From: a virus
IMG/VR virus record: IMGVR_UViG_3300033553_000090
Span: 1 to 50,170 of that record
Strand: one strand, 5' to 3'
Length of the DNA stretch: 50,170 bases
Shown here: piece by piece, positions 1 to 25,925 of the stretch
How positions within the stretch are numbered: position 1 is the stretch's first letter
How the letters are laid out: the number at the start of each line of letters is the position of its first letter
The notes under the pieces: generated by a model
Databases searched by the model: none
The model's input: the letters and a program-made list of their open reading frames with translations, nothing else
Told to the model about the DNA's origin: nothing
Made by a program: the position numbers and the translations under genes

Positions 1-384
1 TACTTCCTTGAGTGTCTGATTCTGTGTGAACGAAGTCGGAGCATCGCCTATGGAATCAACAAGCCACTTTGTCTTATCAACTCCTTGATAACTAGTAACC
101 TTACCAGTACCGTCCTGAGTTTCTACAGGGTCTAGTGGTATAAAAACACCAAGAGATTCATAAACTACCACATCATTGATTTTTTGACCGTACCAAAGCC
201 TCCACAGGTCTAACAACCAATCTTCGGGTAGTTCTTCTGACAAATCAAACTTACAGGTTCTACGGTACTTTTCGCCACGACTAACCTTAACTTCACCATT
301 TATCAAATGGGGTGTCTTTTCTTCTATAACTATCCCAGCCTGATTGAGCCGTTCTATTTTGAAATAAAGTTCACGACTAGCCAT
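1..384 (-). CDS. Tail-tip protein, N-terminal part (cut by window edge)
   Basis: The first 128 codons of a tail-tip/baseplate protein; the rest lies beyond base 1. The encoded protein is about 91% identical to the N-terminus of the 507-aa protein at 48613-50136 and aligns to it without gaps. The start ATG overlaps the stop of the upstream tail gene by 8 bases (stop at 377), the usual coupling in this operon. An AAGGAGA-like site lies inside the upstream gene's last codons. Most base differences from the right-hand copy are synonymous, so both are under selection as functional proteins. It is either the same locus seen twice through circular permutation or a true paralogue. Confidence 0.85.
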   Translation of the reverse strand, partial: MASRELYFKIERLNQAGIVIEEKTPHLINGEVKVSRGEKYRRTCKFDLSEELPEDWLLDLWRLWYGQKINDVVVYESLGVFIPLDPVETQDGTGKVTSYQGVDKTKWLVDSIGDAPTSFTQNQTLKEV

Positions 385-418
385 TACCAATCTCCTTGAA
401 TGAGAATCCTGCTGACCA
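1..418. repeat. Left-end copy of the 418-bp terminal repeat
   Basis: Bases 1-418 match 49753-50170 in the same orientation without a gap. I count about 55 mismatches in total. The first 90 bases are identical and all mismatches fall in the remaining 328, giving a mosaic look. The block spans the end of one tail gene and the start of the next in both copies. Confidence 0.9.
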
Positions 419-3400: not shown

Positions 3401-3424
3401 TTCAAACGAGCCACTTAAAGCCAT
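377..3424 (-). CDS. Large tail-tip / receptor-binding protein with FN3-like modules
   Basis: A 1015-aa protein directly after the tape measure, the position of distal-tail and host-recognition proteins. The first ~130 residues are a glycine/aromatic-rich beta domain resembling siphovirus DUF859-type tail proteins. Three tandem FN3-like modules follow (about 134-230, 232-327, 328-424), each with the core GLTP.T.YY.RAYA.N..GT.YG. Two or three further Ig/FN3-like domains lie at about 428-680, and a carbohydrate-binding-like beta sandwich at about 690-830. The C-terminal ~150 residues (PINDRTETQYYEP to WSAGFSFKEIGNG) recur at the right window edge. The family call comes from position and architecture; the receptor is unknown. 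The same FN3-like module occurs in the giant protein at 9152-16141. Confidence 0.8.
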   Translation of the reverse strand: MALSGSFETNNVGGLASQYPNRFRFEWSATQNIGGNFSTVSYSLKGHGGTGGGWWVYTWHRRLVINGVLMGDASNQIEMTTGYVLFSGSTNVGHDGAGYKTFNANSTGRIYYGGGDNTSNSVNFSLNRIPKPPTVSTSTVSSVTPTSGYFPGNISDTGGATVTDAGVYVSSVDSTPDAGDLDADSNDNSGSFGATLGGLTPNTLYYYRAYATNSRGTSYGIVRTFTTYELAEVTTDATTSITGTTATANGQLINNGNPDITEKGFVYSTSPTPTTSNNKVTVAGTATGAYNAGLTGLTPSTTYYIRAYAKNTAGTVYGSESSFQTVVPPTLTTNDPSAITTTTADMSGEVLSDGGGIVSERGFVYGTTPAPTTADSKWQVGSGIGIFSDQITGLTPSATYYIRAYAINEGGTGYGNEKSFTAVETNPLQPSNLVPSGGNATDDLTPNLSWQYNPGSANDTQSAYQVIVTRQSDSVQMWDSTKVVSSNQNVDYAGTALVYDVVYQWEVRTWNQADLDSPYSTTVVFKTSELPVATITYPTDTATIPSNTPTFTWTYSDPESTVQVSSRVRVYASDNTTLLHDTGEVLGTDTSYLMPDGILETNNTYNVSVELQDGDGLYSALVSHEFTVVFLAPAQPTISTTADNAGIVDVNITINQPPTDGWYADKITLYKSNDGGLENTQFIVDYMLNVALVDDAEDETLWVEFGDAIAATAGTAKYGTQSVQLATTGTGANSWYKLIDIQNLVDYDTFQVMINVVDNTAYTSIDFRLETDASNYFEIVVASGDLANGVWNPIHVNLENWTQVGEPNPNDINSIKVVIQNPTGAIAVGDILIDEIRLLQSLYTFKDYETANGDDLIYGITARSVEAAVSTGLVQSSLTQVRFLENLYNTYLVPLGSEENMLKGWLDGTSGIPINDRTETQYYEPVGAKYPSVFVNANQQFKDGSLELWFFDVQKGGQGKAGVRVFEDIKNIKPILLRTWWGDNYWISVDGVISVNRKPGIGWSAGFSFKEIGNG

Positions 3425-3427
3425 ATT

Positions 3428-6073
3428 CTATACTCCCCTCATTGAAGCTAATTTGAGTTTCATGTCACGAACAAAATCATCTGGATTCTGTACATTTGGA
3501 AGCTCTAATCTATCTATATTTATAACATCACCGTTACTGCCCGAAGTCTTAGTATCTAAGCCATTAGGAACAGAACCAACGCTAGTTCGCATCGATGGTA
3601 ATTCATTTCTCATAATCTGACTTAACTTACTTAACGGTATAACTGCTTCTGGTTCGCCACCCTCACCAATCATAGCCAAAGTAGCTCTGGTAGCGATACC
3701 ACCTTGAGCAAGTGTTGGAATAGTCGGCATACTGAACCCTTTACCACCTATTCCTGGAACCCAATCTGGAGCTGTGAACGAAATCTTACCAACCGTACTG
3801 TTCCAGAATCCAGCCACAGCGTTGAAAGCCGCTCTGAAAGGCGAAGAAACCGTATCAGCTATACCACCAATCGCAGAGCCAATTCTACCACCAAGTCCAC
3901 TAAACCAACCAACCACAGTATCAACCACGTTACTAATAGTTGTTTTTATGCCGTTAAATACTGCTACTGCTTTATCTTTAATCCAATTCCACGCACCAAC
4001 CACTCTATCTCTGAGCCACATAAACGTATTTATATAGGCGTTTATGTACATAACAACAGCACCTTTAATAAAGTTGAATACCGTTACAGCCGCATTTTTA
4101 ATCCAGTTCCACACAGCTATTGCAAAGGTCTTAACTTTGTCCCAGTTAAGAATAATCAAAGCTACTGCCGCAATAACAACTGCAACTATCAGCCCAATCG
4201 GTCCCATCGCCAACAACCAAGATGCCGCAATTCTAAGAGCCGCTAATGCTGACTGAGCTACTGCAACTGCCATTCCTGCTAGATAACCAGCAAAAGTGAT
4301 ACCCCACTGGAAAAGCGTAGTAGCCGCACTAGCTATCCAAGCACCTGTCGTTATAGCCGCATTGATTATCGCACTACCACTAGCTAATACGAATTGAGCA
4401 ATCAAGCCAGGTATTCTGATTACAAAAGCCAACAAAGACTGTGCCGCAGATGCTACCCATGCACCTGCTGTAATTGCCGCACTAGCAACTGCTCTACCTG
4501 CTGTTATAGCAAATTGAATACCAATCTGAGTAATCTTAGGCAATAGTGCCGCTCCAATAACTACACCTACGTTTTTAATTGCAGTTTCGTTATCCTCAAG
4601 GAAACCAGTAACAGCATCGTAAACTGTTTGCCAAGTTGCTTTGATACTGTTTATCGCATCGCTAAAAGCCCCAACTACTATATCTTTAACAACCACTATT
4701 TTGTCATAGATAGTATTCCAACCGTTTACGATAACGTCCTTAAATGTAATAAACCAACCCTTTAACGTGTCCCAATTACTAATAATCAGGTACGCAAGTG
4801 CCGCAATTGCCGCACCAAGAGCTATGAACGGTAGTAACGGAGCTACTGCCAGCCATGCGTTGACAGCCATAATAATAAATGCTGGTACTAGTCCACCGAT
4901 AATTGCTCCAGCAAGTGCCGCAATTACAATTTTGTTTTGTCCTAGCCAAGTGAATAATTTAGAAGCCGCAGGAACTACCCTGTTAAGCATGAAGTCAGCA
5001 AACTGAGTTACATACGGTAGCAATTTAGAACCTAGTTCTACAGCTACGACCTGTAATTGATTGCCTAGTAACTTCAACTGGTTATTTGCTGTAGCTTTTT
5101 GCTTTTCAAATGCTTCATTTACTCCGTACGTGGCATCTTCCATATCATTCAACGTATTTGCATAGGCTTCTGATGTTGCACCAGAAATAGACGTTATTGC
5201 CGCCATAGCTTCCGTAGAACCTACTAACTTGAGCATTTCTGCATCGTTGTCGCCTACCTGTTCTTTAACGGCTTGCATGGCTTTACCAACACCACCTGTT
5301 TTAGCAATCAATTCTTTGAATGTTTTTACTCCCAATTCACCAAACACCTTTTTCGATGTTTCGGTTTCACGAGTTAATCCAGCGATAACTGCCCTCATCT
5401 GCGTATAAGCCTGTGAAGCAGGGACACCTACCGTAGTTAGAGCAGAGATAACTGACATAAAGTCTTTCATAGGAATACCTGCATCTGACATTTGACCTGC
5501 CACTGCACCAAAGCCTTGACTTAATTCTGCAACTGTTGTTTTACCATTCTTTACTGTCTTGAACAAAATATCTGAAATCTCAGCCGCAGTTAATCCCTCT
5601 GACGCAAACGAGTTAATCGCACTCGTCATAAGATTCGTAGCTTCCTCTGTAGTACCAAGACCTGCAACTGCCAATTTTGCAGATGATTCCAAGACTTTTA
5701 GAGCCTCAGCCGCATCTGTAATACCAGCAGAAGTAATCGCATAAGCAGAAGCACCAAGCTCCTCTGGTGATTTAGGAATCTCCTTGACCATATCCAGAAT
5801 ACCCTGACGTAACGTACCCATAGCTTGAGTCGAGTCGCCAGCAATCAATGTACTAACGTCAGCCATTTGAGTTTCAAAGTCAGCCGCTTGCTTACCTGCG
5901 TAAACCATAGCCGCACCAGCCGCTACAGAAGCCGCCCCAACGACCTTAGCGAATCCCATAGAAGCAGTACCAGCTTTTCCAAACTTACTTTCGACACCAG
6001 AAAGAGCACTGTTAAACTTCGCAGTTTTCATTTCCAGTGTTGCGTAAATGCTTCCTAAGAACACGCCAGCCAT
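3428..6073 (-). CDS. Tail tape measure protein
   Basis: 881 aa. The N-terminal ~330 residues carry the TP901-type tape-measure core (ADFETQMADVSTL, then alanine-rich helices). The middle has several long hydrophobic segments separated by repeated W..I.D.....G modules. The C-terminus contains GEGGEPEAVIPLSKLSQIM, a signature common in siphovirus tape measures. In infection it sets tail length and is ejected ahead of DNA. It sits directly downstream of the frameshifted chaperone pair and upstream of the tail-tip genes, the canonical order. At 881 aa the tail should be roughly 130 nm by the usual 0.15 nm per residue; that is inference. Confidence 0.93.
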   Translation of the reverse strand: MAGVFLGSIYATLEMKTAKFNSALSGVESKFGKAGTASMGFAKVVGAASVAAGAAMVYAGKQAADFETQMADVSTLIAGDSTQAMGTLRQGILDMVKEIPKSPEELGASAYAITSAGITDAAEALKVLESSAKLAVAGLGTTEEATNLMTSAINSFASEGLTAAEISDILFKTVKNGKTTVAELSQGFGAVAGQMSDAGIPMKDFMSVISALTTVGVPASQAYTQMRAVIAGLTRETETSKKVFGELGVKTFKELIAKTGGVGKAMQAVKEQVGDNDAEMLKLVGSTEAMAAITSISGATSEAYANTLNDMEDATYGVNEAFEKQKATANNQLKLLGNQLQVVAVELGSKLLPYVTQFADFMLNRVVPAASKLFTWLGQNKIVIAALAGAIIGGLVPAFIIMAVNAWLAVAPLLPFIALGAAIAALAYLIISNWDTLKGWFITFKDVIVNGWNTIYDKIVVVKDIVVGAFSDAINSIKATWQTVYDAVTGFLEDNETAIKNVGVVIGAALLPKITQIGIQFAITAGRAVASAAITAGAWVASAAQSLLAFVIRIPGLIAQFVLASGSAIINAAITTGAWIASAATTLFQWGITFAGYLAGMAVAVAQSALAALRIAASWLLAMGPIGLIVAVVIAAVALIILNWDKVKTFAIAVWNWIKNAAVTVFNFIKGAVVMYINAYINTFMWLRDRVVGAWNWIKDKAVAVFNGIKTTISNVVDTVVGWFSGLGGRIGSAIGGIADTVSSPFRAAFNAVAGFWNSTVGKISFTAPDWVPGIGGKGFSMPTIPTLAQGGIATRATLAMIGEGGEPEAVIPLSKLSQIMRNELPSMRTSVGSVPNGLDTKTSGSNGDVINIDRLELPNVQNPDDFVRDMKLKLASMRGV

Positions 6074-6074
6074 A

Positions 6075-6428
6075 TTATTTATCTCCTATCGATTTCAGTA
6101 TATCCGATAATTGAGGAATCTCATCATCTGAAACAGAGTCCGAGTCAGTTACTATTGAGCGTTTGAACTTTTCAATCTTCACGCTTTTAGCTCCCATCAC
6201 TTTCATCAGTCCTTTTATGTACTGAATCAACGTGTGGACTATCTCTGCTTCGTTCTCTTTTTCTATAGCTTCATAACGTGTTGCTAATGCTGAATCTAAT
6301 TGCCATGCATCATACCCTGTCAGGTGAGGCATGAAGTCACTAGGCTTCGTCGTCGGATAGCGTTTCGCTACCAAGTCTAGCAATCTGCCTTTGTCGCTGG
6401 ACACGAAACTGACGGAGGGCTTCATCAC
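6075..6428 (-). CDS. Tail assembly chaperone, frameshift-extension ORF (gpT-like)
   Basis: A 117-codon frame overlapping the end of the upstream chaperone gene and ending 2 bases before the tape measure. This is exactly the arrangement of the lambda G/T pair. The frame is open only from a TGA just upstream of a run of six G (minus strand, 6428-6433), and the run lies inside the overlap. The frame is +1 (equivalently -2) relative to the upstream gene, so a simple -1 slip would hit TGA at once. Products are expected as a fusion with the upstream protein. Independent initiation at GTG 6428 or ATG 6425, using the G-run as a ribosome site, is possible. Helical and charged, as the family usually is. 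Confidence 0.75.
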   Translation of the reverse strand: MMKPSVSFVSSDKGRLLDLVAKRYPTTKPSDFMPHLTGYDAWQLDSALATRYEAIEKENEAEIVHTLIQYIKGLMKVMGAKSVKIEKFKRSIVTDSDSVSDDEIPQLSDILKSIGDK

Positions 6429-6894
6429 CCCCCTGAATGAACATCATCAACTCAGTTGATTCCATATCTGACAAATCTTCAAACAATATCTGACCTGCCT
6501 CGTAGTTTGGATTTTCATCGACAATTTGAGGACTACGTAGTGATGCTTTAACCATCAGACGTTCGTATTGACTGTAATCCTCTAGCTCTTTACCTGTGAC
6601 TGGACGATTTTTCGCCATCTTCTGTTGAACATTAGTTGCTTTAGCCGCTAATTCGCTCGGAACTATACCTTGTTTTGTTAAAGATGCAAGACTTGGACGA
6701 CCCACTAGAAACGTAATATCTCCAATCGTAACAGGAGTACCAGAACGGTCTTTCTCGTTACGATTCTTGAAATACGAACCACTAGTCGCCTGTGGTGCAG
6801 GTGGAGGAGAAAGCGAAGCCTCTCCTCCCTTGTTCACGTCTTGCTGAACATCATCAGGTTTTACTTGATTCTGTTCGTTGTTTTCTGCGTCCAT
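6340..6894 (-). CDS. Tail assembly chaperone (gpG-like)
   Basis: 184 aa between the major tail protein and the tape measure. The N-terminal ~50 residues are proline- and asparagine-rich, followed by a helical domain (VTIGDITFLVGRPSLASLTKQG onward), and the protein ends in the acidic ETLSDDEA. It is expected to coat the tape measure during tail assembly and be absent from the virion. A CAG GGG GGT sequence near codon 155 is the likely recoding site producing the longer G-T fusion. The family is assigned from gene order and the overlapping second frame; sequence similarity alone would not be decisive. Confidence 0.75.
   Translation of the reverse strand: MDAENNEQNQVKPDDVQQDVNKGGEASLSPPPAPQATSGSYFKNRNEKDRSGTPVTIGDITFLVGRPSLASLTKQGIVPSELAAKATNVQQKMAKNRPVTGKELEDYSQYERLMVKASLRSPQIVDENPNYEAGQILFEDLSDMESTELMMFIQGGDEALRQFRVQRQRQIARLGSETLSDDEA
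6428..6434 (-). promoter_or_regulatory. Probable recoding site GGGGGGT in tail chaperone overlap
   Basis: The minus strand reads CAG GGG GGT GAT in the upstream frame. A slip of two bases backwards on the G-run, or one forwards, places ribosomes at GTG ATG AAG or ATG AAG of the downstream frame. A -1 slip meets TGA immediately. Tail chaperone frameshifts are widely conserved; most are -1, and Mu-type phages use -2. Confidence 0.6.
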
Positions 6895-8285: not shown

Positions 8286-8619
8286 ATCGTTTTAACTCCA
8301 CTTGGCAACCACCGATGCGTGGCTTTACGCCTGTTACTCTCCAGTTTTTCATATCATCACGAACGTTCAACATTCTCCAGATGTCATTCACCTGACAGTC
8401 CAACCAATCCGTAAGACCAATCCACTTATCACCTTTTGGGTCAATGCGTCCAACTATCGTTTTGATTTTGGTATGGTTAGTCAGTTCTTGTTCAAAACCA
8501 GCATTATCCATTTCACCTACCTGAGAACGGAACACGTCTATCGTATTGCCGTCCCTCAACAGATAGTTTACCGATTGCTTATCTTGCTCGGTCTGGTCGA
8601 TGTAGTCATTAGCAAACAT
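8269..8619 (-). CDS. Head closure protein
   Basis: 116 aa between the connector adaptor and the gp10-like protein. Its beta-rich sequence (NTIDVFRSQVGEMDNAGFEQELTN and KIKTIVGRIDPKGDKW in outline) suits an SPP1-gp16-like head-completion protein. The start overlaps the stop of the upstream gene (TAATG). Assigned by position. Confidence 0.6.
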   Translation of the reverse strand: MFANDYIDQTEQDKQSVNYLLRDGNTIDVFRSQVGEMDNAGFEQELTNHTKIKTIVGRIDPKGDKWIGLTDWLDCQVNDIWRMLNVRDDMKNWRVTGVKPRIGGCQVELKRYAKGE

Positions 8620-9149
8620 TAGTACAGCCTCGTTAAGTCAGCAGGTGTAACGGTGTCCTTTTTGTACAGGTCATGGATTCTGCGACCTTTTTTGACAGCA
8701 TTTTTATTACTCACCTTGCCACTCCAATATTTCAGTAGCTTTTCTACCTGTGCGAATACCTGTGAGTTTTTAACTTCTGAATCTGCTTCCTTGTAATCAC
8801 GTTGACGAGCAACACTGCTCAAAATGCCCTCAAGTGCCATTATGATTGATGCATCTACACCATAGTTATCTATGTAATCCTGTAATTCAATATCAGTAAA
8901 TGCCGCATATTTGAACGTGACTCGAATCTCAACACCGTCTGCTGGTGCTGTATCAAATGTCAACACTCCAGGTTCGCTCGAAAGCGAATATCCAGTGTTC
9001 TGTAATACTGTATCGAAATACACACGTTCGTCCCATACGTTTTCGTGACGTATTTGGAAGTCCTCTAATTCACCATTAGCAGACAGCAGGTTTTCATCTG
9101 CTTTTACCCTGTCACCTATAGCTATTCGCACTTTAGTTAAATCGTCCAT
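8619..9149 (-). CDS. Head-tail connector adaptor (gp6/gp15-like)
   Basis: 176 aa. The N-terminal ~90 residues read like a beta-rich domain (DERVYFDTVLQNTGYSLSSEPG; ITFDTAPADGVEIRVTFKYA in outline). The C-terminal half is the helical DIELQDYIDNYGVD... bundle common in adaptor proteins that dock under the portal. It ends in basic residues. It is the first gene of the neck module, separated by only 2 bases from the giant repeat protein upstream. Confidence 0.65.
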   Translation of the reverse strand: MDDLTKVRIAIGDRVKADENLLSANGELEDFQIRHENVWDERVYFDTVLQNTGYSLSSEPGVLTFDTAPADGVEIRVTFKYAAFTDIELQDYIDNYGVDASIIMALEGILSSVARQRDYKEADSEVKNSQVFAQVEKLLKYWSGKVSNKNAVKKGRRIHDLYKKDTVTPADLTRLY

Positions 9150-9151
9150 AT

Positions 9152-12100
9152 CTATCTCCTTGTTCTGCTGGAGGCTTCTCCAGCTTTAATTTTACCACTT
9201 CTTCCAGTATGACGGCTACTTCTACCCATGTGCATCAACCGTCCACGAGGCTCAACATCATATCTCATTGACAGTTGAACCGTATTAGTTGACTTGATTG
9301 CGTAACTCAAGTCTAGCCGTACTAACGTTGGCAACTGAACTATGTAAGTCAGCGACTTAGTAATCTGCTGAGTTTTCTTAACCTCATAGGTTAATGATTT
9401 TGTTTCTAACCCTTGTGACTGAATCTGATAAACAAGACCTTTGCTGATAGCACTATTGTTAAATACTACATATATCAACTGCCTTGTTTCAGATGCTTGA
9501 GCTTTGACAGTGTACTGTAAGCTCTGATTTTGCACGTTTGAACCGTTCACACGATATTCTAGTGATTTGCTCTGGCTATCGCCTGTAACTACTCGATATG
9601 CAAGCTGTTTGGTCGTTGAATAGGTTTTGAGTATTGCATATTGTACAGCCTTAGCAAGCACACCTATCGGTAGCAGGTTGTACTGTAGTGCTTTCTGAAC
9701 TAGCTTACTAGTGATAACTGCATACTGAGCAGACTTTTGAACTATTTTCGTAGCACGAATGGCGTATTCTAAGCCCTTTTGAGGAGCTGTAGCACCCAAG
9801 TCGATACGATATTCAAGTCCGAGCTGTATCGAAGCAGGAGTGCTGGTAACTGTGTACTGGACAGGCTTATATATATTGGCTTCTGGCACGATTGAGTATT
9901 GCAAGGACTTCTGACTGTCCGTACTGGTAATGACCGTATATTTAGCTGACTTCTGAACAGTCACAGTTGGCTTGACTGCATAGCTTAACGATTTCGTATT
10001 TCTGTCTGCCGTAATGACCGAGTACTCAAGTGATTTATTTAACACAGCAGGTGTACTGGTTATCACATACTTCAAGGACTTCGTAATAGATTCCAGATTC
10101 TGTATCTGGTAGTCTATCGATTTCTGTAGGTTCGACTGAGTACGTACTGCATAGGTAAGCGTACGTTGAACCTGTATGGACGGAACGACTGCGTAAGTAA
10201 CGGACTTTAGAATAACGTCACCAGTTATTACAGAATACGTAAGATTTTTAGACTTAGCTGTAGGCGTTTGAATGACTGTGTACTGAGCTGATTTAGAAAC
10301 TGCACCAGACGGAACAATCGAGTACTGTAATGACTGTTGAATTAGCTTAGGAGCTATCACTGTGTATTTAGTGCTTTGCTGTAGTGTCGTAGACGGAGTT
10401 ACACGATATTCAATAGGTTTCTGAACCATATCGTTCGTTAGAACTCGGTAGGTCACGCTCTTTGTTCGTGATTTTGGAGAAGCAACCATATACGTTAGTG
10501 ATTTGGTGGTAAAGTCTGACGTGACGATTCCGTATAGCAGTGCTTTTTGAACAAGGTCATTAGATGTTACCGTATACTGCAACGATTTAGTCACAGATAA
10601 TAAGTTCTGAATTATGTAATTCAAGTCTTTTTGAACTAGCGAGTTAGTAAGAACCGTATACTTCAAGCTCTTTGTCGGAGTGAACGTAGGCTTAACAGCG
10701 TACTCAAGCGTCTTGAGCTGAACATCACCGAGTGCAATACGATATTCCAGTGACTTCTGAGCAGAGTCATTCGTAATAACCGTATACTGGACTCCCTTTT
10801 CAATGAAGTCACCAGTCGTTACGTGATACGTTAGCGTACGGTTAATAGCTGGTGCCTGAGCTACAACCGTATATTTGGCAGTTTTTGTTTGTGTTTGAGG
10901 CGTTTTAACAGCGTAACTCAGGCTCTTACTAAACGATAGCGATGGAGCTACCTTATATAACAATGACTTACTTACAGGTGTAGCAGGTGCAGTAACAGTA
11001 TATTTAATCGCTTTGCCAATACTTCCTGATGGCGTGACGTAATACTGCATATCTAATTGAACGAAATTATTATCAATGACGGTGTACTGGAGGCTTCTAG
11101 TGTCAGGCGTTTTAACGACAATCTGATAATCAAGTGACTTAGTTTGCGAGTCACCTAATAGAACTCGGTACGTGAGCTGTTTCGTAGTACTGTCTTGCGT
11201 GATTACCTGATATTCCAGTGCCTTTGTAATAGCATTGGTATCTTTCACTTCATAAGCCAACGACTTAGTTACTGGAGTAGCAACTGCTACACGATACTCT
11301 AATGATTTCGTAACACTGTACGTTTGAGTACCAAGAATGTCGTATCGCATTGATTTGGTGATACTGTTCGTATCTCTGATTGCGTACTCTAATGATTTGG
11401 TCGTAGCCGTTGGACTTATATCTACACGATATTCAAGTGACTTCGTAATCGGAGTAGCTGGAGCGACAACAGCGTATTCAAGTGCTTTTGTTATCGGAGC
11501 ATTTGGAGCAACCACTACGTACATAAGCGATTTAGTGACATCTGTAGTATCAACAATCCTATACTCAAGTGATTTGGTAGCTGACTTTGTATCTACAATC
11601 TGATATTCAAGCGATTTAGTTGTCGGTTCTGTCTGAACGATACGATATTCAAGCGATTTCGTTATGACTGTCGGAGTTGTGACAACCGTATAAGCTAGAG
11701 TCTTAGTCACAGAACCAATTTGCTGAACGACATAATCTAGGCTCTTAGTGACTGGAGTAGCAGGAGCAACCACAGCGTACTGGAGCGATTTGGTCTGACT
11801 ATCTTGAGCTTTGACCGTATATACCAATCCCTTTGTAATCGGGAACTTCTGGTTAATGTAGTACTCTAACGATTTGGTCAATGGCGTAGCTGTGGTCGTG
11901 ACTGAATATGCCAAGTCCTTTTGAATGGCGTTTGTATCTAGGATTTCATACGTAAGCGACTTTGTATCTGGTACAGGAACAACAACTGTATATTGAAGTG
12001 ACTTCGTACTACTGCTCGGTTTAACGACTTGATATTCAAGTGATTTGGTGACAGGTGTAGCAGTCGTAACAACCCTGTATTCTAATGACTTCGTTACTGG

Positions 12101-15100
12101 TGTAGCTGTTGTGACTACTGAGTATTCTAGTGGTTTGGTAATAACGTCACCTATATTGATTGAGTAATCAATAGTTTTCGTGATTGGCGTAGCTGGAGCA
12201 GTAACCTGATATTCAAGTGACTTAGTTTTAGCTGTCGGAGTTGTAACTATCTCATAACTCAAGTTCTTTGTTTGACTATCGGTAGTTACACCTGCTCCTA
12301 TAGTAAAGTCGGTAGCACTCTCAAGGTTTGAAACGTCTGATTCTACTATAAGTTCAACAATACTTATGTTCATAGCACCTGTGAAATAATCACTTACGAA
12401 AACATAAGCCTCTAGTGATTGAATCTTAGCCCATGTCCAACCACCACTAGGAACTGTAAGCTCTACAGGAGCAGACACTCCACCATTACCTACATCACTA
12501 TTGAAATTTTCAGAATACAATTGTGTAGTTTTACCATCATCATATATATCTACGTTTAATGTAGAGTCGCCACCACTTTGCCTGTTAAATCTAGCTTTAA
12601 CTGAGCTTATTGTGCCTCCAGTAGCAGGTGCATTTGTTCCCTCTATTTTTAATTCATTTGTTGAATTAGTACCTACCGTAGTTGTGTCAGCAGTAGTCGT
12701 TAGATTTCCGTCTGTTAAGTTAGTTTCATTTGTCCAAACATTATCTGGGTCTGAAACAGCGACATCTGAGCCATCAAAATAAAACTTTTCTATTTTAGTA
12801 GGAGCAGGGTATGAAACTTTTGATGAACTACCAGCCCATGATTGCCAGTGATAGTTATCAGCAGTAAGCGATGATAATGCTACTCTTGCCAGTTGTTGTA
12901 TTATAGGATTTTCATTTACCCAAGTTCCAAGTGCAGCAAAAGTTGTACTTATTTCTATTGATTGAGTATCGTTGAACCAAGTTCCAGTTGAGGGTCTACC
13001 AGCAGTTATATAAAATTTGTTATTTGCATGAAATCCTGCATGAGAACGTCTTGCTGATGGTGCTGATGTTTGTGAAACGGAATTCCAATTACCAATACCA
13101 GGAGTCAATATTTGTGAGTCATTTAATACTGCACCGTTATAACCACCCCACAAAATTAAATGATTAAGATACGGATTATACGAAAGCACGGCTGAACGTC
13201 TACCTGTGGTAATATTATTTCCTATGTTCCACACCATATTGGTTGTACTCATGTCTAAGTAGCCAGATTGAGCAGAATAACCTGAGTCACCTGTGCCTGT
13301 TGCACCACCAACAATCCATAAATAGTTGTTTTTTGTGTCTACTGCATAAGCTGAACCCCAAGCAGCAGTAAGAGCTGTTCCAGTAGGAGTTCTCTGAGTC
13401 CATACTCCATCAGCAGAGCCACTAAATGATAATTCCCATACTTGAGTACGGTTTGGTCCACCAGTACCAGCAGAGCCTCCCCATATAACCATACGGTCAT
13501 TTGTAGCATCATAACCAGCTACGTGTAACCAACTAGTCGGTGGTTTCGTACCAGTCGGATTTAATTTAGTCCAGTAATAATCACCATTCGTGTTTCTAGT
13601 CAATGACCATACGTCATTCATAGTTACAATATTTCCTTGACCACCACCATAGAAAATGAATCTGTTTCGATTCGTATCGTAAACTAATGAGCTACCCTCA
13701 CGCTGGAATGGTGCTAGATAACCAACTACACCGTTTCGCCAGATGTTATTAGCAACATCATATATATGCGTAGCTGTACCATGACCACCATCTGCGATTG
13801 TTACACCGTTATCAGGTATGTGCTGATAGCCATGAGTCATAACAAACTCGTTTGCATCAGGGTTAAAAGCAAATGCTGGTGCGTCTAACGGACGGTATTT
13901 ATTGTTCCAGTTTAATCCATAGAACTTAATAGGGTCGCCAGTGTCGTTCATGTCAATAACAAACTCACGTCTTTCAGGGTCGGCTGTGCTATCTACACCA
14001 CCACCGATGTACCACATATTCCTAGTAGTATCTACTGCACTGAATGAGCCGTATGTTCCAAGAGGCATATGTTCTGCTACGTCAGATATGTTATTCCAAG
14101 CCTCAGAGCCACTGGTCAAATCCAATTCCCACATATCTCTGTAATAAGTTCCAGATGAGCTGTTTGAGTTTCCACCCCACATAAGCATACGGTTGTTTAC
14201 TGCATCGTATTTAGCAACGTGCAATTCTCTAGCCGCAGGAGCAGTTCCAAGTCCAGTTAATTCTGTCCATACATATGTACTGAGGTTAAACGACCATACC
14301 GTATTACGACTTGTCGTACCGTTGTGACCACCGAACTGTATAAGCCTGTTGTTTGTGCTGTCATATATCAAAGAGCCGTTTCTGGTAACAGGAGGTGCTG
14401 TACCTGAGCCAGTATGCCTTTGAGTCCATGCACCGTTAAACGATGACATATCAAGTTCCCAAACATCGTTGTAATACACAGAACCCCAACCACCAAATAC
14501 CCACGATTTGTTAGTTCCAGTGTCATAGGTCATCATCTCACCTATGTTTGAACGAGCCGCAGGTGGACCACCTGTAGGCGATAGCTCCCACCATTCACCG
14601 TCTGAGCCTGATGTAAACCACCATCTCCAAAGGTCGTTATTATCTGTACCTGAATAACCTCCAAAGAATATAGCGTGATTGTTACCAGAATCCCAACCTT
14701 GTCCAAAGTAATAGCGTCCCTCTGGTGCTTGAGTACCGTTATAAGCAGTTACCAGTGTTCCACTTGAATCTCGTGGTGCCATCTTACGCCATTTAGGTAA
14801 TTCCTGTTTCATGTCCAGTTCCCATGCCTCAGCACGATAAGTCGTATTGTAAGCACCATGAGTCATAACAAATCGTTGATTCGTAGCGTCATACCAAATA
14901 CCAGAGCCACGTACACCTTTCCAGATGTCAGGATTCCAGTGCAGGGTATTTAACGTGTTGCTTGCAGTATTAGTAAACGCAGTGCCTACAGGGTCTACCT
15001 CTACACTTGGTATTACATCGGTTGTTTCTGTATCTGAGCCAACAGTAACATCAAACTGCAACATAGGGTCTGAACCAACTAATACAGAGCCACCAGTTGC

Positions 15101-16141
15101 TAATGGCGTTTCTCTGTCTGATTGATACTGAACTGGATTACGTACTGCATCTACGGCTGGAGTTGTGAACTCAGTATCAGCTCCATAGCTCGTGCCTATA
15201 GAGTTTGTAGCGTATGCCCGATAATGATAAAGGGTCGATGGACTTAAACCTGTCATGGACTGCGAGAACGCTCCTGTTCCATACGAACCAGACGTATTGA
15301 ATATAAAATCATTACTGGCTGTTGTCGGGTTGGCAGATGTACTTACTACAAAACCACGAACCGAAGCATTTTCATTACCTCTATTTGTAATGTTACCGTT
15401 ACCTGTTGCTGACGTTGCCGCTACTGATGTAGCCGCTTGAGTCGTTACTGTAGGAGCTTGCAGTTTAGTAATAGTTACAGTCGGAGTTACGTTATTGGTC
15501 ATAGTCTTGCCATCAATCAGAACAGGGAATGTCAGAACATCACCATCACCTACATCTGCGTATCTAATAACTACCGACCAGACGTGTTCTGTGAAGTTGT
15601 TTGCTGTCAGGGTCATACTTGGCGTAACACCGTCACCCTCGTCATACTTACCAGTTACAAAGCTACCTGAGCCACCAGTCAAACGAGCCGCAGTTACATC
15701 AGCACCGTCAGCAGGAGTACCGTTATATGACCTTACGAATGAACTTGCACCGTCTATCTGAGTTTGAGCACCACCATTCCTTGTGTAGTCAAGTCGGTAT
15801 ACGTTAGCTTCACCAAGACCACCTTGTTCCTGAATACGTATTCTAATCTGCATTACATAGTCTGCCGTTACTGTCGGAGTCAAGTTAGTACCTTGAGCCG
15901 CTAAAGCCGTAGAGCTTGCTAGAGTGCCGTCCTGATAGAATCTATATGCCGTTGTATATGGGTCAAAGAACGTGTGACCTGCTATAAAGTATTTTGGTAT
16001 ATCAAAGTTGTGTTTTCTGAACCACCAACAGAGGTGAATTGGCTTGTATTCCTCAAGCCTTGATTCTCCTAGTATTGGTCGTAAGAAAAATGCAACCAGT
16101 AATGTAAGACGGTTAATCAACCATGCTAATAGCTTACGCAT
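9152..16141 (-). CDS. Giant virion protein: FN3-like, kelch propellers, 71 tandem 14-aa repeats
   Basis: About 2329 aa, the largest gene. The N-terminal ~50 residues contain a hydrophobic helix (LLAWLINRLTLLVAFFLRP) and a tryptophan-rich patch, followed by a beta domain to about 225. One FN3-like module (about 228-326) matches those in the tail-tip protein at 377-3424. Kelch-type repeats fill about 400-1100 (many FGG/WGG turns such as VFGGWGS, QFGGHNG, MWGGNSN), enough for two beta-propellers. A beta sandwich follows (about 1145-1270), then 71 units of consensus TKSLEYxVxxxxxx, and a basic 31-residue tail. I prefer ATG 16141 to 16150 because GGGGAG lies 9 bases upstream of it. It lies between capsid-associated and connector genes, so a head or neck fibre that binds cell surfaces or glycans is likely; that is inference. 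Confidence 0.8.
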   Translation of the reverse strand: MRKLLAWLINRLTLLVAFFLRPILGESRLEEYKPIHLCWWFRKHNFDIPKYFIAGHTFFDPYTTAYRFYQDGTLASSTALAAQGTNLTPTVTADYVMQIRIRIQEQGGLGEANVYRLDYTRNGGAQTQIDGASSFVRSYNGTPADGADVTAARLTGGSGSFVTGKYDEGDGVTPSMTLTANNFTEHVWSVVIRYADVGDGDVLTFPVLIDGKTMTNNVTPTVTITKLQAPTVTTQAATSVAATSATGNGNITNRGNENASVRGFVVSTSANPTTASNDFIFNTSGSYGTGAFSQSMTGLSPSTLYHYRAYATNSIGTSYGADTEFTTPAVDAVRNPVQYQSDRETPLATGGSVLVGSDPMLQFDVTVGSDTETTDVIPSVEVDPVGTAFTNTASNTLNTLHWNPDIWKGVRGSGIWYDATNQRFVMTHGAYNTTYRAEAWELDMKQELPKWRKMAPRDSSGTLVTAYNGTQAPEGRYYFGQGWDSGNNHAIFFGGYSGTDNNDLWRWWFTSGSDGEWWELSPTGGPPAARSNIGEMMTYDTGTNKSWVFGGWGSVYYNDVWELDMSSFNGAWTQRHTGSGTAPPVTRNGSLIYDSTNNRLIQFGGHNGTTSRNTVWSFNLSTYVWTELTGLGTAPAARELHVAKYDAVNNRMLMWGGNSNSSSGTYYRDMWELDLTSGSEAWNNISDVAEHMPLGTYGSFSAVDTTRNMWYIGGGVDSTADPERREFVIDMNDTGDPIKFYGLNWNNKYRPLDAPAFAFNPDANEFVMTHGYQHIPDNGVTIADGGHGTATHIYDVANNIWRNGVVGYLAPFQREGSSLVYDTNRNRFIFYGGGQGNIVTMNDVWSLTRNTNGDYYWTKLNPTGTKPPTSWLHVAGYDATNDRMVIWGGSAGTGGPNRTQVWELSFSGSADGVWTQRTPTGTALTAAWGSAYAVDTKNNYLWIVGGATGTGDSGYSAQSGYLDMSTTNMVWNIGNNITTGRRSAVLSYNPYLNHLILWGGYNGAVLNDSQILTPGIGNWNSVSQTSAPSARRSHAGFHANNKFYITAGRPSTGTWFNDTQSIEISTTFAALGTWVNENPIIQQLARVALSSLTADNYHWQSWAGSSSKVSYPAPTKIEKFYFDGSDVAVSDPDNVWTNETNLTDGNLTTTADTTTVGTNSTNELKIEGTNAPATGGTISSVKARFNRQSGGDSTLNVDIYDDGKTTQLYSENFNSDVGNGGVSAPVELTVPSGGWTWAKIQSLEAYVFVSDYFTGAMNISIVELIVESDVSNLESATDFTIGAGVTTDSQTKNLSYEIVTTPTAKTKSLEYQVTAPATPITKTIDYSINIGDVITKPLEYSVVTTATPVTKSLEYRVVTTATPVTKSLEYQVVKPSSSTKSLQYTVVVPVPDTKSLTYEILDTNAIQKDLAYSVTTTATPLTKSLEYYINQKFPITKGLVYTVKAQDSQTKSLQYAVVAPATPVTKSLDYVVQQIGSVTKTLAYTVVTTPTVITKSLEYRIVQTEPTTKSLEYQIVDTKSATKSLEYRIVDTTDVTKSLMYVVVAPNAPITKALEYAVVAPATPITKSLEYRVDISPTATTKSLEYAIRDTNSITKSMRYDILGTQTYSVTKSLEYRVAVATPVTKSLAYEVKDTNAITKALEYQVITQDSTTKQLTYRVLLGDSQTKSLDYQIVVKTPDTRSLQYTVIDNNFVQLDMQYYVTPSGSIGKAIKYTVTAPATPVSKSLLYKVAPSLSFSKSLSYAVKTPQTQTKTAKYTVVAQAPAINRTLTYHVTTGDFIEKGVQYTVITNDSAQKSLEYRIALGDVQLKTLEYAVKPTFTPTKSLKYTVLTNSLVQKDLNYIIQNLLSVTKSLQYTVTSNDLVQKALLYGIVTSDFTTKSLTYMVASPKSRTKSVTYRVLTNDMVQKPIEYRVTPSTTLQQSTKYTVIAPKLIQQSLQYSIVPSGAVSKSAQYTVIQTPTAKSKNLTYSVITGDVILKSVTYAVVPSIQVQRTLTYAVRTQSNLQKSIDYQIQNLESITKSLKYVITSTPAVLNKSLEYSVITADRNTKSLSYAVKPTVTVQKSAKYTVITSTDSQKSLQYSIVPEANIYKPVQYTVTSTPASIQLGLEYRIDLGATAPQKGLEYAIRATKIVQKSAQYAVITSKLVQKALQYNLLPIGVLAKAVQYAILKTYSTTKQLAYRVVTGDSQSKSLEYRVNGSNVQNQSLQYTVKAQASETRQLIYVVFNNSAISKGLVYQIQSQGLETKSLTYEVKKTQQITKSLTYIVQLPTLVRLDLSYAIKSTNTVQLSMRYDVEPRGRLMHMGRSSRHTGRSGKIKAGEASSRTRR
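9248..12271 (-). repeat. 71 tandem coding repeats of 14-16 residues
   Basis: I counted 71 consecutive units with a fixed Lys, hydrophobic residue, Tyr and Val/Ile (T/Q-K-S-L-x-Y-x-V). Most are 14 residues, some 15-16, giving 3024 bases. Codons differ widely between units, so the protein repeat is conserved while the DNA has drifted. The N-terminal third is richer in TKSLEY; later units more often use QK, SA and TV variants. Confidence 0.95.
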
Positions 16142-16520
16142 TTTTACCATCTCCCCAAACTTGTCGTTTTGGAGTTTCTAATCTTTTCTTTCCAGTTTCA
16201 ACTAAAAATATAGTTTCATCTATAGCACGTTGTTTGATAGCGTCAAAGTCACGCTGAGGTAACGTACGCCCTTGTTTAAGAGCTTCTACGTTTCTGTGCA
16301 TGAATTGGTCGAGTACACCGTATATATCAGCACCACACCATTGATTGTCGTCTAGGTCGAAATAATACCAGTCCCATAAATGCAAAAGCTGACGACCCAC
16401 ATCATCGTCAGCTACCACAATTACTTGAACGTCTAATGTAGGTGCGTCTTTAGGACTGCCTTGCGTATTATCAAAGCTAGTTCCATCACCGTAATATATT
16501 CTCCATTTAAGCTGTTTCAC
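16134..16520 (-). CDS. Conserved small protein next to giant virion protein
   Basis: 128 aa with an N-terminal KWRIYYGDGTSFDNTQGSP motif, then DVQVIVVADDDVGRQLLH and WDWYYFD. I recognise this pattern from phage and metagenomic proteins of unknown function, often encoded near large decorated fibres. No catalytic motif is evident. It overlaps its neighbours by 14 bases upstream and 8 bases downstream, so it is probably cotranslated with the giant protein. A role in assembling or chaperoning that protein is a guess from context. Confidence 0.65.
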   Translation of the reverse strand: MKQLKWRIYYGDGTSFDNTQGSPKDAPTLDVQVIVVADDDVGRQLLHLWDWYYFDLDDNQWCGADIYGVLDQFMHRNVEALKQGRTLPQRDFDAIKQRAIDETIFLVETGKKRLETPKRQVWGDGKNA

Positions 16521-16974
16521 TGCTAATCCACCTCATAGAGTCTTTGCTCTGAGATGAGATTTGCAACCAGTGGCCACCAAGCGATTGAACTAAGTAAAAT
16601 AGCTCCATCTCGCCTTTACGGTCATGTTCAGCAGGGAACTCATACCCGAAGCCGTAACTGATAATCTCTGTTTGATTACCAGCACCATCGCTGAGGCGTG
16701 AAGTCCTACGGAAGTGAATCAATTTAGCACCATCTGGAATTGCCATAGTGAACTGGTGTATACCATTCACCATTCTCAAAGCCGATAGTTTGGATTGGTC
16801 GATGTCATTGAAGCCTCTAGCTTCCTTTGTATCATCGTTAAACTGAGGTAGTTCGCTACCGTCTTTATAGACAGCAACAAAATCCCAGTGCCAACCAGCC
16901 CTATCAACTGTATCTCCATTTGGTTTTGTGTAAATTGTATCTTGCATTGTATTGCCCTTTCGCTTCATTGGCAT
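16507..16974 (-). CDS. Hypothetical virion-region protein
   Basis: 155 aa, or 146 aa if started at the second site (ATG 16947). It is mixed beta/alpha and rich in Trp, Phe and Asp (GWHWDFVAVYKDGSELPQF), with no motif I can assign. The two possible starts lie in copies of a 13-base direct repeat, each with its own G-rich ribosome site. It belongs to the accessory virion operon between the capsid and the giant fibre. Confidence 0.6.
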   Translation of the reverse strand: MPMKRKGNTMQDTIYTKPNGDTVDRAGWHWDFVAVYKDGSELPQFNDDTKEARGFNDIDQSKLSALRMVNGIHQFTMAIPDGAKLIHFRRTSRLSDGAGNQTEIISYGFGYEFPAEHDRKGEMELFYLVQSLGGHWLQISSQSKDSMRWISSETA

Positions 16975-17199: not shown

Positions 17200-17703
17200 T
17201 TACGCTGTTTCGTCGTATTGGTAGTTCATTGTAGATGTACTACCTGCTGTGTCAGATACGTTTGTCTGAATCTGGTGAACGAGATAGTCTGAACTACCTG
17301 TTGCAGTAAGACTGCCTGTTAATGCTCCTGCGATACCGAGGTTCGCTGAACCTGGCTCTGCTGTTGGCATTGTCTGAGTTGCTTTTGTACTAGCACTTGC
17401 AGTTGGCTGTACATAAGTTTCAGCACCACCATAAGTTGCTGTACGTGCGTTAGTGACGTGCGTTGCCGCTCCACCTAATGCACCTGTTCGCCATACTTTC
17501 AAGTTATCAATAGCAGATGAACCACCCATAGCAGTTACATCAATTTTCTGATACTTCTCGAATGTGTTGTCGCCTGGGACGACTGGATTAGCTACTGCGT
17601 TCAAGTTAGCCGCATCTGTGCTACCCATGTTTGAATTACTGATGTTATTGGTTATAGTTTCACCTACACCGTTACTTTCATCAATTTCTACTGTTGCTGG
17701 CAT
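17200..17703 (-). CDS. Probable virion surface protein
   Basis: 167 aa, very rich in Thr, Ala, Ser, Asn and Gly, with almost no charged patches (ATHVTNARTATYGG; GALTGSLTATGSSDY). This composition is typical of phage structural beta proteins. It follows the major capsid gene after one small gene, so a head decoration or fibre-associated role fits. No catalytic motif. Confidence 0.55.
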   Translation of the reverse strand: MPATVEIDESNGVGETITNNISNSNMGSTDAANLNAVANPVVPGDNTFEKYQKIDVTAMGGSSAIDNLKVWRTGALGGAATHVTNARTATYGGAETYVQPTASASTKATQTMPTAEPGSANLGIAGALTGSLTATGSSDYLVHQIQTNVSDTAGSTSTMNYQYDETA

Positions 17704-18137: not shown

Positions 18138-19142
18138 CTATTGCAAGTTGACTTTGATAACACCGTATTTGCCACCAAGAGCCGCAAACACACCACGACG
18201 TGTTCGACCAACTACCTGTGCAAGCACAAGACGAGTCAAGTCACCGTCATTCGAGTCAACACGTAAACCATGCTTCTCGTATTCAACCAACTGTCGTTTA
18301 GGAACAAGCAGGTAGACCGTACCTACATCTACGCCAGGGTAGGTGTAAGTTTTCTTACGTACAACGGCTGAATCACCATCGTATGCAATTTTAGCCATAC
18401 TACCGAATGTTCGCTTAACAACGTTTGAAGAACCGTCAGTGTGGATTGCTCCAGCCACAGCTTCCTCGATGCGTTGAACATCAAAGGTGTTGTGAAGCAT
18501 CAAGCTACCAGCAGGTAGAACTTGTAATGCGTTACTAAGGGTCGTTTCAATGTCGGTATCAAATGCAATCTCTACAGCCGTACCAGCTTCCTGACGAACT
18601 TTCTTCAACGCAATTGATTCAACAGTTGCGTCATAAGTTGCAGTAACGATAGGACCTAAGTGCAAGTGGTTCAAGAGCTTATTGTAAGCCTCACCAAATG
18701 CTGTTGCGATTTCACTAACTCTCCATGTCTGGTTGAACTCAACGATGTCCTCGTTGTATTCCATACCAGTTGTCCAAGTGTTGATGCTAACGGTCTTTTC
18801 AGAACCAGGTGACATCGCACCGAACTTAACTTCTCCACCCTCCCAGAACTGTAAGAACACAGCCTGTAGTGGACCAAACTCTTTCTCAGTTAGTGTCTGA
18901 GGAAGATTTGCATCTGAAACTGTACGGTAGATGCTTCCGTATATTAGAGGCACTGTTTCTCGTCCTGAGTAAGCACTATAAGTAACTTGCTCAATGAACT
19001 CACGTGAACCAGAGTCAGTACCAAGCATTTCTGCTATCTGTACATCTTCTGCAAACTCCATTACTGGAATTACGCCTTTGTTCTCGTGCATTTCTGAAAC
19101 CACTTGGCGTTGAGCTTCTATGCCGAATTGTCGAATATTCAT
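18138..19142 (-). CDS. Major capsid protein
   Basis: About 334 aa. I choose ATG 19142 because TTAGGAGGG lies 6 bases upstream; an extended frame opens at 19181 but would overlap the decoration gene. The sequence has the HK97-fold layout: N-terminal helix (GIEAQRQVVSEMHEN), E-loop-like stretch, then alpha/beta core (VESIALKKVRQEAGTAVEIAF in outline) and a C-terminal VVGRTRRGVFAALGGKYGVIK. It follows protease/scaffold and decoration genes and is followed by its own terminator, consistent with very high expression. Confidence 0.85.
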   Translation of the reverse strand: MNIRQFGIEAQRQVVSEMHENKGVIPVMEFAEDVQIAEMLGTDSGSREFIEQVTYSAYSGRETVPLIYGSIYRTVSDANLPQTLTEKEFGPLQAVFLQFWEGGEVKFGAMSPGSEKTVSINTWTTGMEYNEDIVEFNQTWRVSEIATAFGEAYNKLLNHLHLGPIVTATYDATVESIALKKVRQEAGTAVEIAFDTDIETTLSNALQVLPAGSLMLHNTFDVQRIEEAVAGAIHTDGSSNVVKRTFGSMAKIAYDGDSAVVRKKTYTYPGVDVGTVYLLVPKRQLVEYEKHGLRVDSNDGDLTRLVLAQVVGRTRRGVFAALGGKYGVIKVNLQ

Positions 19143-19153
19143 CTCAAACCCTC

Positions 19154-19498
19154 CTAACGGTTTTCTAGTAGCTTGTACCAAACAACGTTGTTGGCATCTT
19201 TCGCTACGGTTACTTTACAAAATGGTCGGTTGGTATTAGTAGCATTAACTACGTCTGTACCGTCTGTGGTGATATATAACAAATCACCTTTAGCCGCAAC
19301 GACACCACCAGCGACTTCGTGTTCGAACTCTCGTTCTGTGGTTTCTAGTGAAACGATATTATCGCTTGTATCACCATCGGCATCTTTCATAGCTACGCCA
19401 TGAAATCCCTCTGCATAGCAGGGAGCACCTTTTTCGACAGCTTGTCCAGCAATCAGTGTTACTGTTACTGCCTTGCCGTCTGAAACTAGATTATCCAT
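19154..19498 (-). CDS. Capsid decoration protein (DUF2190-like)
   Basis: 114 aa, beta-rich: GKAVTVTLIAGQAVEKGAPCYAEG..., a pattern typical of DUF2190 head decoration/stabilisation proteins (VTAGQAV.KG motif). It lies between the protease/scaffold gene and the major capsid gene, its usual place. It probably trimerises on the capsid surface. Confidence 0.75.
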   Translation of the reverse strand: MDNLVSDGKAVTVTLIAGQAVEKGAPCYAEGFHGVAMKDADGDTSDNIVSLETTEREFEHEVAGGVVAAKGDLLYITTDGTDVVNATNTNRPFCKVTVAKDANNVVWYKLLENR

Positions 19499-24317: not shown

Positions 24318-25925
24318 TCACCTTTTGCGATTTATCGGGTTGCCTTTTGCGAATGTGGCTTTGCCCTTAGACTTCCCTTTTCCGTATGTAATGTCACGCA
24401 TAGCTGTATTTGCAAACCAGAGTGCCATAAGTAGGTCGTTCGTGTGTCCTCCAGGAAATCCGAGCATACCACCTATTAGATAGTCTACCATTCTACGAGT
24501 GTACTCGCTACTGTCGTTGTACGGTAGAATCCACTTGCCGTTCTCGAACTCAACAGCCATTGAATTGATACCGATGTCCTCATCAAACTTTTCACCACCA
24601 GTACCATAGCCAGCTATCGGTAGGTCTGTCATTTCATTCATATCACGTACAAGTGAAGCCTGATAAGCGTTCGATTCAACGGTAAACTTTTTCATCATCG
24701 GGTAACGTTCAAACATTTCAACAATCATCTTACGTTGTTCGCTAGGACTCCATTTGCCGTAATCAAGCCACAATGGAATCTTAACGCCTGATTTGGTACG
24801 TCCGATAATGGCAATAGCTGAATCATCACTGCCGTCTTTCTTACTGATAGCTAAGTCCATACCACCTGTGACTGTCATAGCCCCTAAGTCCCAACTTGCG
24901 TAATTAACAAAGCGTACTAGCTTCCTTGAGCCTGACATAGCATCTTCGAGCCATTCCTTTTGAAATACTTGGTCCTCTGCCGATATAACCATGTTCCGAT
25001 ATGCTCGGTTGAATGATAACGAGCCAGATGATAGCTTACGTTCCATTAACAAGTCCCATGTCCATTTGTCGTCCCAGAGTACTTCCTTTTTCTTTTCATT
25101 GACCACAGCATCGTAGATAATCTTCACGTCAAAGGTAACGTCTGCCAATAGCTCCTGATATAAATCAAGCTGATTCCATGCAGTACCAACGATAATAAGC
25201 GTTCCATTAGGCTCTAGTACTGGCATCAGGACATCGAAGAACCATTCACGAGTTCTTTCACGCTGTGTAGCTGACCTTGTAATACTTTCGTTCAGAATGT
25301 CGTCACAGATGATAATATCGGCACGTTTACTAAGCAATACACCTGATACTGACGTTGCTGATACTGTCGGGTCTTTCAGTTTGTTATTGTCACGCTTAAC
25401 GATGAACTCCGATTGCGTCCATTTTTGAGCTTGGTCGGGTACGAGGTTTCCAGCCCATTCGATGTATTCATCATTACGTTCCATATGACCTTGTACCTCA
25501 CGAACGAATGATTCTGACTGTGATGCTGATTTACTGACTATAACAATACGTACGTTGTGGTCTTTAGCTATTTTCCACAATGGGAAGTTCACACTGAACG
25601 TGGTGCTTTTAGCGTGTCCACGAGGAGCTTCGAGCATGATTTTACGGTTCATTACGCTCGGTTCGTGAGGTTGGAGTATGCGTATATTACTACCCTCTTG
25701 TACGGCTCTATTCTGGAGTAGCATCTGCCACTCGTAATGGTGGTCGCCATTAGTGAATCCCAATATATGTTCAACGAATGTAGGAAACTCCTCCCACGCT
25801 TCTAGGTCACGAATCTTCTTGACTAGTTGTCGCCACTGCTCTAGTTCCCCTAGACTCTGTGGTTGATATTCTAGCAACGTTTTCATTGGTTCTGACGAGT
25901 TTTTTAATATCTGCTCTAACGGCAT
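24318..25925 (-). CDS. terL: Terminase large subunit
   Basis: 535 aa packaging ATPase-nuclease. Walker A is EAPRGHAKST (about 99-108), Walker B is IIICDDILNE (about 204-213), and the nuclease domain starts GGMDLAISKKDGSDD (about 354-368) with a further Asp near the C-terminus (GGHTNDLLMALW). It cuts concatemers and drives DNA through the portal. ATG 25925 is supported by AGAGGAG 7 bases upstream and implies a 119-base overlap with the small terminase gene. Confidence 0.95.
   Translation of the reverse strand: MPLEQILKNSSEPMKTLLEYQPQSLGELEQWRQLVKKIRDLEAWEEFPTFVEHILGFTNGDHHYEWQMLLQNRAVQEGSNIRILQPHEPSVMNRKIMLEAPRGHAKSTTFSVNFPLWKIAKDHNVRIVIVSKSASQSESFVREVQGHMERNDEYIEWAGNLVPDQAQKWTQSEFIVKRDNNKLKDPTVSATSVSGVLLSKRADIIICDDILNESITRSATQRERTREWFFDVLMPVLEPNGTLIIVGTAWNQLDLYQELLADVTFDVKIIYDAVVNEKKKEVLWDDKWTWDLLMERKLSSGSLSFNRAYRNMVISAEDQVFQKEWLEDAMSGSRKLVRFVNYASWDLGAMTVTGGMDLAISKKDGSDDSAIAIIGRTKSGVKIPLWLDYGKWSPSEQRKMIVEMFERYPMMKKFTVESNAYQASLVRDMNEMTDLPIAGYGTGGEKFDEDIGINSMAVEFENGKWILPYNDSSEYTRRMVDYLIGGMLGFPGGHTNDLLMALWFANTAMRDITYGKGKSKGKATFAKGNPINRKR

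Follow-up and report, generated by a model that had tools for sequence, protein, structure and literature searches.

A tandem 14/15-residue repeat protein encoded in a conserved head-module cassette of uncultured phages

The window analysed here is a stretch of viral DNA of 50,170 nucleotides (IMG/VR record IMGVR_UViG_3300033553_000090, positions 1 to 50,170). The genes and features on which the analysis bears are the following.

3428..6073 (-), probable tape measure protein, by size, position and sequence; matches a 584-aa protein in locus L010 at 39%
8619..9149 (-), probable head-tail adaptor; weak PHROG match, in the position of the phrog_442 adaptor in L005
9152..16150 (-), array protein gene, an ORF of 2332 aa
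9155..9229 (-), basic C-terminal tail of the array protein, aa 2308-2332, from the translation
9230..12274 (-), 71 tandem 14/15-residue units, [VI][TQ]KSLxYx[VI] plus a loop, aa 1293-2307
12944..14686 (-), kelch-repeat propeller region, aa 489-1069 (PF24681, 1.3e-50; PF13415, 1.3e-10)
15146..15463 (-), FN3-like segment, aa 230-335, by eye only
16134..16520 (-), 128-aa gene between the cassette and the array, with no homologue in the loci
16507..16974 (-), 155-aa conserved companion (the "138-aa family"), in 63 sources by HMM
17200..17703 (-), 167-aa hyper-conserved companion, of a family found in 74 sources
18138..19181 (-), probable major capsid protein (MCP), phrog_3116, 2.9e-66; MCP identity judged from size and position
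24318..25925 (-), terminase large subunit, phrog_38, 3.2e-71

As the earlier note on this DNA had reported, the 71 units run without a break, filling the C-terminal 1015 residues of the array protein. Successive units are spaced by 14 residues in 53 cases, by 15 in 16 and by 16 in one; the 14-residue unit first described therefore holds for the 53, and "14/15-residue" is the better name. The core consensus is [VI]-[TQ]-K-S-L-x-Y-x-[VI], in which K, L, Y and V lie on a common strand face. The core residues are nearly fixed, as had been claimed: Tyr is present in 71 of 71 units, Lys in 81% of the 14-mers and 94% of the 15-mers, Leu in about 77%, and the last core position is Val or Ile in at least 98%. 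Pro is frequent in the 15-mer units alone (57%), no invariant or conserved Gly was found in the window units, and the array contains no Cys. A lag-2 periodicity, the sign of two-unit rungs, was looked for and was absent.

The repeat is maintained by selection at the protein level. After residue shuffling of the region the motif was matched 5 times on average and 12 times at most, compared with 71 matches observed. Tandem Repeats Finder reported no repeat at the array in the window DNA, adjacent units have 48% of their bases in common, and codon usage suffices to explain how often codons for the same residue agree between units, so that synonymous codons are fully randomised. The shuffling result, the absence of a DNA array and chance-level codon agreement together bear out both earlier claims, that the DNA of the units has diverged and that protein selection holds the pattern. 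A DNA minisatellite with no function at the protein level has virtually no probability left. The units are indeed arranged in tandem, and a 42-nt minisatellite in a Bacteroidetes MAG (L047:2449-2748) encodes by chance TKWLTYSVTFPAYV repeats resembling the unit, but the window array has no repeat at the DNA level, synonymous codons are saturated and match the codon use of each genome, and the Tyr, Lys, Leu and Val positions are strict across hundreds of distinct units. A minisatellite origin is thus refuted by the codon data. Anti-repeat codon diversification was also considered and rejected; raw counts hinted at such an effect, which was gone when each genome's own codon usage was taken as the reference.

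The kelch propellers expected N-terminal to the array are present (PF24681, 172 bits against a cut-off of 50). The FN3-like module that accompanied them in the earlier note can be seen by eye and was not recognised in a Pfam search of the array protein. The N-terminus of the protein is just mildly hydrophobic. "Giant", in the description "giant phage protein", fits the 2332-aa protein and not the phage, because the viral contig on record is 50 kb long. The codon use of the non-array half (12341-16150) departs slightly from that of the rest of the phage, with a third-position GC (GC3) of 0.30 compared with 0.37, whereas the array itself matches the phage; the kelch half may have been acquired later. 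A tail protein gene at 377-3424 has FN3-like repeats and resembles parts of the L002 and L021 array proteins (BLAST, ~1e-10), which suggests that modules may be exchanged between tail and array proteins. Two overlapping ORFs (6075-6428 and 6340-6894) precede the tape measure gene in a layout like that of tail assembly chaperones with programmed frameshifting.

Relatives were recovered with a two-unit DNA pattern, which found 43 viral contigs, and with a second spacing, which added 7 for a total of 50. A position-specific scorer detected in-frame arrays in all 50 pattern-found contigs and none in shuffled ORFs. The whole set holds 60 distinct array proteins besides that of the window; one candidate, L045, was rejected with two chance units only. 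Complete array proteins have 7 to 67 units (median 21, n = 43, the window's excluded), and the window array is the longest seen. Close relatives gain and lose whole units: where neighbouring genes are 78-91% identical, the arrays differ by gaps of 14, 15, 28, 42 and 60 residues. The expectation that homologues would vary in unit number is therefore confirmed over the range 7-71, close relatives included. The third-position GC of the arrays ranges from 0.15 to 0.77 and tracks each genome, which points to long residence in very different genomes. Four phages (L004, L005, L006 and L032) have two adjoining array genes, those of L004 encoding 26 units (523-3768) and 23 units (3750-5432).

The ends of the array proteins differ. 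Domains found beside arrays are kelch in the window, Laminin_G_3/LamG-like domains in relatives, Amidase_2 (6e-17) and a PHROG endolysin/amidase. In 21 of the 43 complete array proteins no more than 60 residues precede the first unit and C-terminal tails are mostly short, so that there is hardly space for a binding head of their own. In many relatives the tail is of the (R)IYPYSKKTSPY type, differing from the basic tail of the window protein. This shared post-array tail, often with 7-8-residue repeats like (R)IYPYSKKTSPYSKKTSPY..., is carried by array proteins of L002, L005, L011, L014, L020, L027, L029, L035 and L044 and is lacking in the window. In L007, L008, L012, L015, L017, L028, L042 and L043 the N-terminus carries, ahead of the array, a short repeat of the LLQENGDFLLQENGDKIILDG type. 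The N-termini of most array proteins (MARLWxSGFE..., MANYLLQETGD...) have, by eye, no signal-peptide-like segment.

Within a conserved head-module cassette, MCP/167/138/array/adaptor, it is the array gene that varies. Neighbour comparison showed that homologues of the window's 167-aa and 155-aa genes adjoin most arrays, and the typical gene order is portal, protease, MCP, 167, 138, array, adaptor (~194 aa), 105, 150, 146. The array gene lies between the MCP and the head-tail adaptor/Neck1 genes, that is, in the head/neck region, so the placement at the neck suggested by the earlier note stands as far as gene position goes; being encoded in the structural module is also what marks the functional class of virion appendages. 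The 167-aa gene was found upstream on the same strand in 19 of 20 array contigs with at least 3 kb upstream, and an array downstream in 18 of 19 viral contigs with a 167-aa gene and at least 4 kb downstream, the two contig sets having been found by separate searches yet partly overlapping. The 167-aa gene occurs without a detectable array in L064, G1296 and G1302, and in L009 an array stands beside a tail-fibre gene and the 167-aa gene is absent.

Members of the cassette diverge to very different degrees. When the 167-aa protein was used as the query, 47 contigs matched at 47-78% identity, and the loci of this family include that of the window (17200-17703) and L059-L102. Median pairwise identity is 66% for the 167-aa protein, 38% for the ~138-aa protein and 28% for the MCP, with half of the MCP pairs unalignable; the portal, in another subset, has a median of 48%. 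A virion-module protein so much more conserved than the adjoining capsid protein is unusual and begs a structural reason. The probable MCP of the window shares 38% identity with Bacillus/Weizmannia phage proteins encoded where the MCP is expected and 33-39% with MCPs of Bacillus, Weizmannia and Clostridioides phages. In the nearest named phages by MCP, no gene of the array kind separates the MCP gene from the connector genes. The 167-aa protein had no relative in Pfam, PHROG, PDB, named phages or plasmids, and the 155-aa companion had no match in Pfam and PDB.

The repeat family appears to be undescribed, in keeping with the earlier statement that no named family has this repeat. In Pfam, kelch in the N-terminal half was the sole match of the window protein, leaving the array unmatched; PHROGs, NCBIfam and PDB sequences gave nothing consistent for the array, nor did a 24-row array alignment compared with PDB, Pfam and PHROGs. 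No real relative was found by tblastn against 50,697 named phages, a negative that the BLAST low-complexity filter may weaken. Peptide-pattern searches of viral contigs, with the repeat and with the N-terminal half, gave no match, and a full-text literature search found no mention of the repeat motif. A match to LR756501 proved to be an unrelated helical repeat. Lone matches in Pfam, NCBIfam and PHROG (TIGR00412, LAMININ_IV_B, DUF4906, phrog_15087 and others) were taken as compositional because they were scattered and inconsistent from member to member.

Structure models were made with AlphaFold2 for 12 window units and 18 L006 units. In both runs most units formed one strand of ~9-13 residues with short turns, and this predicted strand per unit agrees with the sequence pattern. 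A regular rod model was not obtained, as mean pLDDT was 63 and 54, respectively; a beta-solenoid, stacked hairpins and a trimeric spiral are all candidate forms of the array. Foldseek comparison of both models with the PDB gave no significant match (best E 0.06-0.09, TM-scores below 0.4); two BFVD matches below 1e-3 were distrusted, their TM-scores being below 0.3. An array that needs oligomerisation in order to fold would be expected to give single-chain models of poor quality.

The cassette also occurs in cellular genomes. Within one phylum, whose listed members mostly have genomes of 0.5-1.1 Mb, 3 of 380 genomes encoded the 167-aa protein, and within one class 5 of 374 did so; among the genomes from two other phyla, those to which a Defluviitaleaceae and a Bacteroidetes MAG belong, the count was 0 of 793 (Fisher p 0.03 and 0.003). 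Two of the matches lie in genomes assembled as one contig, of 818,817 and 1,096,538 bases, and a third host is a draft bin. In both closed genomes an array protein of 8 units, with an amidase-like region at its end, adjoins the 167-aa gene:

G029:C1:486910-489507 (0.82 Mb genome), amidase-ended array protein of a prophage; Amidase_2; L107/L108 pair
G190:C1:326298-328883 (1.10 Mb genome), amidase-ended array protein of a prophage; same sequence region as the G029 amidase

The G029 prophage also encodes TerL, portal, MCP and tail-fibre genes. Similar DGEEDY-type domains lie on both flanks of the array in the G029 and G190 proteins (L107, L108). The ribosomal protein uL30 was missing from all three array-bearing hosts and was found in 13 of 14 control genomes; its absence is a CPR feature (PMC6744442). 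The small genomes and the absence of uL30 would make the host phylum Patescibacteria, and the cassette would accordingly lie inside CPR/Patescibacteria genomes, the phylum name being one that we infer. This host link concerns other carriers of the cassette and not the window phage.

We think it somewhat probable that the array is the length-variable stalk of a virion appendage, specified by a head-module cassette with exchangeable ends. The 167-aa and ~138-aa proteins, encoded right after the MCP, would be the constant parts, probably forming the base on the capsid or neck or assisting assembly there. The array protein would be the variable part, in which near-identical one-strand units act as a spacer and the number of units sets the reach. 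Located on the virion, anchored at one end and extended, the array would link exchangeable functional ends to the particle: kelch, LamG/ConA-like and similar modules at the N-terminus, which may bind host-surface glycans, and in some prophages a peptidoglycan amidase at the C-terminus. The earlier proposal of a stalk that presents or anchors glycan-binding heads is supported to the extent that binding-type domains (kelch, LamG-like) adjoin the array, and falls short in the missing rod model; it is plausible and structurally unproven. Counting against it are the lack of a model of useful confidence, the array-less L064, G1296 and G1302, L009 with its missing 167-aa gene, and the many short proteins with no obvious head.

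Other roles were weighed against the appendage stalk. It is rather unlikely that the array protein is a tail fibre or tail-tip adhesin of the ordinary kind, merely encoded in the head module; the array gene of L009 does come after a phrog_4492 tail-fibre gene, and the G029 prophage has a tail-fibre-like protein (phrog_7660/892) three genes past its array gene, but most contigs place the array gene between MCP/167/138 and the head-tail adaptor, where its companions are head-proximal. Improbable, too, is a prophage cargo adhesin displayed on the host cell that helps an episymbiont adhere to its partner, a role that has been proposed for the ConA-like lectin genes carried by Patescibacteriota phages (PMC12911398). 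Array proteins with lectin-like domains and prophages of small CPR-like genomes that carry the array would suit such a role, but the gene is embedded in a structural operon with near-constant companions, most N-termini have no signal-peptide-like segment by eye, and that of the window is only mildly hydrophobic. It is very doubtful that the protein is head-packaged cargo that is ejected along with the DNA, its amidase form serving to open the wall. That would explain a gene in the head module and the Amidase_2 domain of G029 with the same sequence region in G190, but most members lack an enzyme, several have binding domains of extracellular type, and beta-rich arrays of more than 100 kDa would be unlikely cargo.

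More important than the repeat itself is the conserved cassette of uncultured phages, which is uncharacterised and occurs in part in CPR-type hosts. Only tentatively can the MCP-167-138-array cassette be read as a hallmark of the tailed phages that infect ultrasmall CPR/Patescibacteria, that is, as a new head/neck appendage with an adjustable stalk of an unnamed one-strand repeat, a near-constant base protein beside a diverging capsid, and a marker of CPR hosts. If this is true, the cassette could serve as a genetic marker to assign uncultured phages to CPR hosts. The analysis in any case provides a searchable repeat family and two conserved companions for CPR-episymbiont adsorption, an area with almost no known genes, and a stalk whose length shifts by whole 14/15-residue units would be a natural system in which to study the evolution of reach and host choice.

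Several known systems resemble the array in part. The YTV motif (PF07639) of planctomycete cell-wall proteins is likewise a short repeated strand motif with Y-T-V (PMC8567305). L006 scored 28.3 bits with PF07639 (cut-off 21) as a whole-protein sum in which no single stretch passes, and the window array had no match. YTV cell-wall proteins are cysteine-rich (PMC8567305), whereas the window array is free of Cys and its context is phage structural. Beta-solenoids and functional amyloids of the curli/FapC type have the same strand-turn repetition and were among the non-significant Foldseek matches, but their unit length and core motif are unlike those of the array. The strand repeats of the adenovirus fibre shaft are about 15 residues long. 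This shaft, a triple beta-spiral, is likewise a viral stalk of strand repeats, and its isolated peptides are non-native and form amyloid (PMC8869412), which would fit the poor monomer models of the array. Of the features of a triple beta-spiral (a ~15-residue repeat, turn Gly/Pro, two short strands) the array shares length alone: an invariant Gly is lacking, Pro is frequent in the 15-mers and not in the 14-mers, the unit is a single continuous amphipathic strand, and there is no sequence match to the adenovirus shaft. The BACON domain is globular, with roughly 90 residues. Arrays of it in crAssphage are also phage tandem repeats associated with carbohydrate binding (PMC6949934). The repeating element there is a globular domain, whereas in the array it is one strand of 14/15 residues.
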